Both the position numbers and the translations under genes were made by a program. A stretch of DNA of 64,000 nucleotides from contig NZ_CP163421.1 of the NCBI RefSeq assembly GCF_041429775.1, positions 620,001-684,000 on the forward strand, read 5' to 3'. Under the pieces are notes generated by a model. The model was not told the DNA's origin. It was given only the letters and a program-made list of their open reading frames with translations, and did not search any database. The stretch is from Glycocaulis abyssi (lineage in GTDB: Bacteria > Pseudomonadota > Alphaproteobacteria > Caulobacterales > Maricaulaceae). This document shows, piece after piece, positions 7,557 through 9,167 of the stretch (the stretch's first letter is position 1; each line of letters opens with the position of its first letter).

Positions 7557-7639
7557 GGCGGCGTGCTTCCTGTATCGATGGATATGACAGCAGCGTTTCA
7601 CGCGCGGGCAAATAAGCCAAGCCATGTTGCCATGGCCCG

Positions 7640-7645
7640 TTGACC
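7640..7645 (+). promoter_or_regulatory. Candidate -35 element of the pheA leader transcript
   Basis: TTGACC lies 35 bases ahead of the leader-peptide ATG at 7675. No good -10 box is visible at the expected spacing. If this is the -35 element, transcription would start at or near that ATG and give a leaderless leader mRNA. This is inferred from spacing and from the lack of a Shine-Dalgarno sequence. Confidence 0.35.
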
Positions 7646-7674
7646 CGGCAGCAATTCCCGCCCACAGTCACCCC

Positions 7675-7737
7675 ATGAGCACTCGCAGCATTTTTGCCAC
7701 CCGCTATTATTTCGGCCTCTTTACCGGGGGCGGGTGA
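7675..7737 (+). CDS. pheL: Phenylalanine-rich leader peptide controlling pheA
   Basis: A 20-codon ORF, MSTRSIFATRYYFGLFTGGG, lies 98 bases ahead of pheA. It holds three Phe codons (7693, 7711, 7720) and two Tyr codons (7705, 7708), with the run YYFGLF near its end. Its stop codon (7735-7737) lies inside the 5' arm of the antiterminator hairpin. That is what a translation-coupled attenuator needs: a ribosome stalled for Phe-tRNA leaves the antiterminator free, while one that reaches the stop covers it. No Shine-Dalgarno sequence precedes the ATG. Phe leader peptides ahead of pheA are established in enterobacteria; this assignment rests on position and RNA structure. Confidence 0.8.
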   Translation: MSTRSIFATRYYFGLFTGGG

Positions 7738-7780
7738 AATCTGCGCGCAAACAAGCAGCCAGACGGATTTCACGGCCCCC
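7726..7780 (+). promoter_or_regulatory. Antiterminator hairpin of the pheA attenuator
   Basis: GGGGGC (7726-7731) pairs with GCCCCC (7775-7780), and GTGAAATCTG (7734-7743) pairs with CGGATTTCAC (7764-7773). Together they make a 16-bp helix with one G-U pair and a small internal loop. The 3' arm includes most of the 5' arm of the terminator at 7772-7807, so the two structures exclude each other. The 5' arm begins just after the last Phe codon of the leader and spans the leader stop codon. Confidence 0.78.
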
Positions 7781-7807
7781 TCCATCAAACCGGACGGGGC
7801 CGTTTTT
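7772..7807 (+). terminator. Attenuator terminator between the leader peptide and pheA
   Basis: ACGGCCCC (7772-7779) pairs with GGGGCCGT (7796-7803), and TCC with GGA continues the stem inside after one C-C mismatch. A run of five T residues starts at 7803. There is no upstream plus-strand gene to terminate, because the neighbour at 6897-7556 is divergent. It can only act on a leader transcript reading into pheA. Confidence 0.88.
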
Positions 7808-7835
7808 CATTTCAGGGACAAGAGGGCAGGGTGCC

Positions 7836-9008
7836 ATGACCACAGAGAGCAACAACCGGACCGAAGAGCGCGCAAGCCTGCGCGCCGCCATCGACCAGAC
7901 CGATGCAAACCTTGTGCGCACGCTGGTGGAGCGGCGCAGGCTGGCCGAGACGCTGGGCGCGCTAAAAGCCGGTGATGGCGCGCTGGTGCGCGATGTGGAG
8001 CGCGAGCGGGCGGTTCTGGACCGGGCGGTCGCTCTTGGCCGTCAGGAGGGGCTGGACGAGGGTTTTGTCGAGAAGCTGTTCCAGCTCATCATCGACGATT
8101 CCTTGCGCCGTCAGCGCGCGGGGCTGGACGCGCGCGTGCGCACCGCCACGCTGAACGAGGCCAAGGTGGCCTATCTTGGCGGGCCGGGCAGCTATAGCCA
8201 GTTTGCAGCCGACGCGCATTTCGCCGGGCGCTACTCCGCCGTGATGCCGGTTATCCAGCGCGAGTTCGCCGGTATTTTTGAAGCGGTCGAAAAGGGCGAG
8301 GCCGATTACGGCTTTGCTCCCATCGAGAACACCACGACGGGCGGCATTGTGGAGGTCTACGATCTCTTGCGCGATACCAGGCTGAAGATTGCCGGGGAGC
8401 ATCATTACCGCGTGGAGCACTGCATTGTGGGTAAGGCGCACGATCTGGGCACGGTGCGCACCGTGCTGGGTCACCCCCAGGCGCTGCGCCAGTCCCAGCG
8501 CTTCTTTGCCCGTCACCCGGAGCTGAAAACCCGCGCGGTGAGCTCGTCCACCGAGGCGCTCAACGAGGCGCTGACGGGCAAGCCGGATATTGCCGCCGTG
8601 GCCGGGCGCGATGCGGCGCGCCTGTTCGGCCTGAATGTGATCGATGACAGCGCCTCCGACCACCCCGAAAACTATACGCGTTTTGTGGCACTGGCGATTG
8701 ATCCGGAACCGGCCTCACCCTTGCTGTCGTGCAAGACATCGCTGGTGATCGTCACCTCCGATGCCGCCGGCTCGCTCGTCAGTGCGCTTGACGGCTTTCG
8801 CAAGGAGGGGGTCAATCTCACCAAGCTGGAGAGCCGGCCCATCGCCGGAAAGCCATGGCAGCAAATGTTCTTCCTCGATCTCGACGGGCATGAAGAACAC
8901 CCCAATGTCGCGCGGGCGCTGAAAAACCTGCACAGCCATGCGGTGTCTGTCCATTCGTTCGGGTCTTACGGGTCTGACCGGTTGGAGCCTGCCGCGCGGG
9001 GCGGCTGA
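7836..9008 (+). CDS. pheA: Bifunctional chorismate mutase/prephenate dehydratase (P-protein)
   Basis: The 390-residue cytoplasmic enzyme converts chorismate to prephenate and then to phenylpyruvate in phenylalanine synthesis. Residues 1-90 form an AroQ-type chorismate mutase domain (DQTDANLVRTLVERRRL). The prephenate dehydratase domain follows (GPGSYSQFAA near 110, IENTTTGG, and NYTRF with the catalytic Thr-Arg-Phe). A C-terminal ACT domain contains LTKLESRP, the usual phenylalanine-binding feedback site. The ATG at 7836 has a GAGGGCAGGG stretch just upstream, and the longer frame would run back through the terminator. Expression is probably set by the attenuator at 7675-7807, and activity by feedback through the ACT domain. 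Confidence 0.94.
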   Translation: MTTESNNRTEERASLRAAIDQTDANLVRTLVERRRLAETLGALKAGDGALVRDVERERAVLDRAVALGRQEGLDEGFVEKLFQLIIDDSLRRQRAGLDARVRTATLNEAKVAYLGGPGSYSQFAADAHFAGRYSAVMPVIQREFAGIFEAVEKGEADYGFAPIENTTTGGIVEVYDLLRDTRLKIAGEHHYRVEHCIVGKAHDLGTVRTVLGHPQALRQSQRFFARHPELKTRAVSSSTEALNEALTGKPDIAAVAGRDAARLFGLNVIDDSASDHPENYTRFVALAIDPEPASPLLSCKTSLVIVTSDAAGSLVSALDGFRKEGVNLTKLESRPIAGKPWQQMFFLDLDGHEEHPNVARALKNLHSHAVSVHSFGSYGSDRLEPAARGG

Positions 9009-9091: not shown

Positions 9092-9167
9092 GGGTGGTTA
9101 GCTCAGCTGGTAGAGCAACTCGTTTACACCGAGTAGGTCGGCGGTTCGACCCCGTCACCACCCACCA
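9092..9167 (+). tRNA. tRNA-Val (TAC)
   Basis: A full cloverleaf is visible: acceptor GGGTGGT pairs with ACCACCC, the D arm is GCTCAGCTGGTAGAGC, the anticodon loop TTTACAC carries TAC, the T arm is present, and CCA is encoded at 9165-9167. It stands alone between pheA and the polysaccharide locus. Confidence 0.97.

Follow-up and report, generated by a model that had tools for sequence, protein, structure and literature searches.

In the DNA of Glycocaulis abyssi analysed here, pheA is preceded by what is probably a ribosome-mediated transcription attenuator sensing the charging of both tRNA-Phe and tRNA-Tyr. Ribosome stalling appears to be the best reading of the pheA leader, judged from its sequence, and the attenuator layout, as recognised in related genomes, is conserved in eight genera of the family.

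Leader and probable attenuator parts upstream of pheA

The window, namely the whole stretch of 64,000 nt that was analysed (G000:C1:620001-684000), belongs to a genome rated 100% complete, and Glycocaulis is placed in the Maricaulaceae, Maricaulales, Alphaproteobacteria. The pheA product is 95% identical to PheA of Glycocaulis albus (L037); among NCBIfam models it is matched best by PRK10622, the bifunctional enzyme (299 bits over 13-384), with the curated cut-off reached by none of them, and Pfam CM_2 matches above cut-off at 69.6 bits. The features, including the outcome of the stall model described below, are as follows.

7640..7645, + strand: -35 element TTGACC, with the TTGAC columns invariant in alignment A2
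7663..7668, + strand: -10 element CACAGT, with a 17-nt spacer from the -35 element, followed by a 6-nt discriminator (7669-7674)
7675..7737, + strand: leader ORF of 20 codons, encoding MSTRSIFATRYYFGLFTGGG*, without a Shine-Dalgarno-like motif upstream
7693..7695, + strand: Phe7 codon, permissive in the model (arm paired 0.64 versus 0.30 at the stop)
7698..7736, + strand: possible 1:2 hairpin (centroid 7698-7705 with 7729-7736), seen in the full-length fold
7705..7713, + strand: Tyr11-Tyr12-Phe13 codons, where the model places the main permissive pauses (0.64 versus 0.30 at the stop)
7720..7722, + strand: Phe16 codon, non-permissive in the model (0.28 versus 0.30 at the stop)
7726..7743, + strand: antiterminator 5′ arm (7726-7731 and 7734-7743), spanning the leader stop
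7764..7780, + strand: antiterminator 3′ arm (7764-7773 and 7775-7780), segment z -4.12
7772..7807, + strand: intrinsic terminator, hairpin 7772-7803 and T run 7803-7807
7836..9008, + strand: pheA, fused chorismate mutase-prephenate dehydratase with ACT domain, 390 aa

A first-pass annotation of this DNA had proposed a complete attenuator before pheA, and the leader ORF, antiterminator and terminator were all recovered, both structures being more stable than dinucleotide shuffles of the same segments (0/200 as stable for the antiterminator, z -4.12; 1/200 for the terminator, z -3.28). The 20-codon Phe/Tyr leader peptide that it described is indeed the translation of 7675-7737, and folding of the window RNA reproduced its 16-bp antiterminator at 7726-7780, composed of 6 bp between 7726-7731 and 7775-7780 and 10 bp between 7734-7743 and 7764-7773. 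It was equally right that the antiterminator 5′ arm spans the leader stop, that the 3′ arm shares bases with the terminator 5′ arm (7772-7780 are common to the terminator and the antiterminator 3′ arm region), and that the terminator at 7772-7807 carries a T run. Because the upstream ORF lies on the minus strand, the terminator hairpin serves no upstream gene, as had also been stated, and the end of an upstream gene was ruled out as its origin. Directly after pheA lies a tRNA gene (9092-9164), which by eye adjoins pheA in several relatives too.

Short F/Y-rich ORFs alone number 22 in the window, both strands counted, and the pheA leader is the sole case there in which such an ORF is accompanied by TTGAC at the right distance, or by a terminator. 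The flanks of related genomes with the elements masked (353,890 strand-bases) hold 35 such ORFs, one with a terminator, none with TTGAC and none with TTGAC plus terminator. By these scans of the window and the masked flanks, a chance origin of the layout was ruled out.

A terminator with alternative pairings could also belong to a riboswitch, a T-box or a protein-binding leader. However, Rfam at gathering gave no leader family in the window (five tRNA matches only), and at E up to 10 the region 7560-7860 gave only two matches, far below gathering scores, which led us to rule out a riboswitch or known Rfam leader; it is the aromatic-rich ORF that is conserved, while the nucleotide sequence varies, and we consider this whole class of explanation scarcely credible.

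Promoter and predicted leaderless start

While the first-pass annotation had parts of the attenuator right, it overlooked the promoter at 7640-7668, the predicted leaderless start and the metabolic context. From the promoter spacing, transcription is predicted to start on the A of the leader ATG (+1 at 7675), so that the leader mRNA would begin with its own AUG and be leaderless. TTGAC is found 35-42 nt 5′ of the leader ATG in 46/46 elements, with another ATG being closer where the distance is at least 38; in alignment A2 (46 sequences), the -10 hexamer keeps its C and A throughout and its last T in at least 90%. A Shine-Dalgarno-like motif is absent before the leader in 46/46 elements. Since a strict sigma-70 consensus scan did not call the promoter at 7640-7668, the predicted leaderless start rests on this conservation.

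Predicted ribosome stalling at Phe and Tyr codons

The effect of a paused ribosome was modelled by letting it cover 13 nt from the first base of the codon and cutting the RNA before the terminator 3′ arm, and the score was the pairing of the terminator 5′ arm with any partner, not with the antiterminator alone. The first-pass annotation had a pause at the Phe codons at 7711 or 7720 freeing the antiterminator; the model agrees for 7711 (Phe13, 0.64) but not for 7720 (Phe16, 0.28 against 0.30 at the stop), where the RNA is free from 7733 on and forms the lower antiterminator helix only. Over the 46 genomes, the best aromatic stall exceeded the stop state in terminator 5′ arm pairing in 46/46, and by at least 0.15 in 46/46; codons exceeding the stop state by 0.15, here called permissive, made up 199/239 aromatic codons (84/96 Tyr and 115/143 Phe).

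Even without a ribosome, pairing of the terminator 5′ arm averages 0.59 and is 0.64 in the window; it must therefore be masking at the stop that makes the difference, and a protecting 1:2 hairpin is not a general feature. In RNA truncated at 7781, the antiterminator wins over the possible 1:2 pairing of the window. When the window RNA is folded at full length, whether with a stalled ribosome or none, the terminator and the lower antiterminator helix form side by side, and exclusion thus hangs on the pairing of 7726-7731 with 7775-7780 and on the order of synthesis.

In the proposed mechanism, RNA polymerase would start at the A of the leader AUG, as the promoter spacing suggests, and a ribosome would load on the bare 5′ AUG. 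When Phe- or Tyr-tRNA is short, the ribosome would stall at Phe7, Tyr11, Tyr12 or Phe13 and leave 7726-7743 free to pair with 7764-7780 before the terminator 3′ arm is made, which would permit read-through into pheA. When Phe and Tyr are both plentiful, the ribosome at the stop would cover 7726-7743 and the terminator at 7772-7803 would form.

Conservation of the layout in the family

Searching 137 family genomes for fused PheA (E up to 1e-45) found it in 51 genomes of 8/19 genera, and the full layout of aromatic-rich leader ORF, terminator and TTGAC lies upstream of 46/51 fused pheA. A 47th element, in G069, is split over two contig ends, and its pieces show the same parts. The element is absent before 4/51 fused pheA (G012, G028 and G070 of genus g8, and G026 of g5). 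In the three g8 genomes, pheA stands directly after an apparent lon end and its terminator.

A strong terminator is found 10-36 nt past the leader stop in 46/46 genomes, with z below -1.64 in 43/46 against shuffles, and for 6/8 consensus terminator pairs the family alignment has at least one sequence in which both partners are changed. The antiterminator segment has z below -1.64 in 25/46 genomes, the exceptions being 19 of g10, G025 and G126; its mean z is -4.9 in g15, -3.8 in g1, -3.5 in g8, -3.4 in g14, -2.8 in g11, -2.6 in g5 and -1.9 in g4, and in g10 (19 genomes) it is no stabler than shuffles (mean z -0.15). Swapping antiterminator arms between genera caused a clear loss in g1 and g14, and cognate arms paired no better than swapped ones in most g10 genomes; with P 0.05 overall, this comparison was set aside as too weak for a general proof of the antiterminator. 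The competing antiterminator is thus the feature of the attenuator that stands least firmly across the family. Conservation in relatives had been one of the checks offered with the first-pass annotation; the layout in 46/51 speaks for attenuation, and the 4/51 without the element and the shuffle-like antiterminator of g10 speak against it.

A covariance model was built from the 46 elements, which therefore match it by construction, and was run over 135 family genomes; the matches with E below 1e-9 are all at pheA, plus the G069 contig end. This bears on a further explanation, in which the leader peptide or the terminated RNA (about 130 nt) acts in trans as the main product and attenuation is secondary. 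An RNA starting at the AUG would be a small leaderless mRNA like rnTrpL (PMC7298713), and peTrpL/rnTrpL of Sinorhizobium meliloti are reported as acting in trans. However, the leaders vary widely except for their aromatic richness and the Gly-rich tail encoding the antiterminator arm, and no strong match lies apart from pheA or that contig end, albeit with a model built from these very elements, so that we hold a main function in trans to be very unlikely. For 15 g10 leaders, dN/dS is about 0.52 over 103 pairs, which is not decisive.

Among weaker matches, seven with E between 3e-4 and 0.01 were inspected by eye out of a longer list: Ile-rich leaders preceding genes that resemble threonine dehydratase account for two, a site in front of an ilvC-like gene for one, and four look unrelated. 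The first two (L097:1620-1793 minus in G014; L101:1480-1653 minus in G101) have an Ile-rich leader ORF (MTAGLITISIIIGAALLGALPTPV) and a terminator-like tail, and in the third (L100:1377-1535 minus in G019) a terminator-like hairpin comes after a stretch rich in Val, Leu and Ile. In G014, TTGAC lies 35 nt before the ATG of the Ile-rich leader; leaderless attenuators may therefore be a wider habit of the family.

The layout was found in 0/12 upstream regions of monofunctional pheA, taken from matches with loci only and cut where the alignment begins, which may differ from where the gene begins. With E up to 1e-50 as the limit, fused PheA occurs class-wide in 1/385 genomes, the window's own, and phylum-wide in 51/398, the other 50 being 30-39% identical and of another class.

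Phe and Tyr codons in the leaders

Over 970 residues, the 46 leaders contain 143 codons for Phe and 96 for Tyr (Phe plus Tyr 24.6%), with Phe present in 46/46 and Tyr in 45/46. Tyr outnumbers Phe in seven leaders, including those of G120, G122, G124 and G125 with one Phe and two Tyr each, and position 11 is Tyr in 15/15 equal-length g10 leaders, with two different codons used.

For comparison, 29/50 matches in other-class Pseudomonadota (Gammaproteobacteria by inference) came with loci, of which 26 gave an F/Y-rich candidate and three none; G799 and G855, which held the only two Tyr among the candidates, were dropped as not leader-like, and 24 were kept, on the F/Y criterion alone. Tyr occurs in 0/24 of these pheA leaders, as against 45/46 in the family, a difference compared by Fisher test, with neither genomes nor codons being independent.

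According to the simplest alternative, this is an ordinary phenylalanine attenuator, in which the response depends on Phe codons alone, and the Tyr codons beside them are tolerated and retained through descent. It accords with Phe in every leader, and with the 15 g10 genomes that have a TyrA-type gene yet carry Tyr codons too, for which reason Tyr codons are no simple mark of TyrA loss. It sits poorly, however, with the seven leaders in which Tyr is in excess, four of them with a single Phe, with the 84/96 Tyr codons that are permissive, with the Phe-only leaders of the other class, and with a Tyr at position 11 of all the equal-length g10 leaders that is written in two codons. We therefore regard it as unlikely. 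The first-pass term "phenylalanine attenuator" thus keeps its second word as the best reading, and its first is too narrow, given how widely Tyr codons occur and how many of them are permissive in the model.

Routes to tyrosine

Phenylalanine 4-hydroxylase (PF00351) and TyrA (PF02153) were searched in 136/137 family genomes. The hydroxylase is present in 43/46 leader genomes and absent from G025 (100% complete), G103 (65%) and G115 (69%), and a TyrA-type match over cut-off is found in 16/46, namely 15 of g10 and G025. Counted without TyrA were 29/46 leader genomes, the window's included: 13 listed as matchless, six with weak matches, and 10 taken from the unlisted remainder by inference, at most one of which was maybe not drawn. 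Five of the six weak cases are below cut-off, and G121 (26.6 bits), which resembles sub-cut-off matches elsewhere, was counted as not TyrA. Completeness is at least 90% for all 29 except G071 (69%), and G103 was assigned to neither group. All 29 have Tyr codons, and all have the hydroxylase, which in genomes lacking TyrA makes PheA's product the probable source of tyrosine.

In the window genome, TyrA searching gave nothing over cut-off, the sole match (22.5 bits) being an F420-oxidoreductase-type protein, and an intact 322-aa phenylalanine 4-hydroxylase ORF is present; tyrosine is probably made from Phe by this enzyme in the organism. Dyella without TyrA is reported to synthesize tyrosine via phenylalanine 4-hydroxylase (PMC7311316). 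The window genome also has 4-hydroxyphenylpyruvate dioxygenase, given which the hydroxylase may have a catabolic role. That PheA is the sole chorismate mutase, and that this explains the Tyr codons, was ruled out by a second, 117-aa chorismate mutase in the same genome.

A natural contrast is offered by two genomes of one genus. G025 has TyrA with an HPLFGP stretch, neither hydroxylase nor 4-hydroxyphenylpyruvate dioxygenase was found in it, and its leader has three Phe and no Tyr; G008 has hydroxylase and dioxygenase, is without TyrA and has three Tyr in its leader. This contrast is one event. Within g10, the TyrA-unlisted G109, G110 and G111 have 3, 3 and 4 Tyr, versus 1 to 3 in other g10 genomes, and their leaders look closely related. 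For g10, a precedent is Echinicola, for which synthesis of tyrosine by both routes has been proposed (PMC7311316). In the other class, 24/24 leader genomes have a TyrA match and 9/24 have the hydroxylase together with Phe-only leaders, by which hydroxylase presence alone was ruled out as a predictor of Tyr codons. The TyrA-type protein of the fifteen g10 genomes (61-80 bits), of G025 (88 bits) and of several g7 genomes is short (L080, L081; frames mostly about 235-280 aa), and TyrA of other family genera is roughly 300 aa with stronger matches, mostly 105-134 bits.

Discussion

Mixed-codon attenuators of enterobacteria include thrL (Thr/Ile) and ilvGMEDA (Ile/Val/Leu). As in those systems, several amino acids from the controlled enzymes would be read by one leader before pheA, whereas the pair here is Phe/Tyr and would reflect the derivation of Tyr from Phe. 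Attenuation of pheA is described in E. coli and Salmonella (PMC1183508), and the pheL-pheA arrangement of gammaproteobacteria likewise has a short aromatic leader peptide before a target enzyme of the same type. The nearest fused PheA proteins found outside the family are those of the other class, presumably gammaproteobacterial; their leaders are Phe-only in 24/24, and AGGA lies within 14 nt of the start in 7/24, in contrast to the family, where no leader has a Shine-Dalgarno-like motif. Transcription attenuation at trpLE(G) of Sinorhizobium meliloti likewise depends on a leader ORF, and the RNA is reported to begin with the ATG of that ORF (PMC7298713), as is predicted here, but with Trp codons and trpE(G) instead of Phe/Tyr codons and pheA with a predicted 5′ end. 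What is new relative to the known attenuators is the combination of Phe/Tyr codons with a predicted leaderless start, and a literature search of titles and abstract openings found no description of an alphaproteobacterial or a Phe/Tyr pheA attenuator.

The Tyr codons would be useful because phenylalanine 4-hydroxylase is probably the enzyme that supplies Tyr here, from Phe, in which case a shortage of Tyr would also call for more PheA. Based on these findings, we tentatively propose, at somewhat less than even confidence, that a dual Phe/Tyr attenuator translated from a bare AUG records in its codons a rewiring of tyrosine synthesis, namely that Tyr pauses are kept where TyrA is missing and PheA feeds both amino acids, and that none is found in a relative with TyrA and without the hydroxylase. 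This link to rewiring is hypothetical: one natural contrast (G025 and G008) is clean, and one exception (g10) is large.

If true, the way in which tyrosine is made could be told from the leader codons of a genome. This would add a Phe plus Tyr attenuator with a predicted leaderless start in an alphaproteobacterial lineage, and would connect leader codons with the hydroxylation of Phe, a way of making tyrosine that is known but has been little studied. It also predicts that a shortage of tyrosine alone should switch on a phenylalanine gene.
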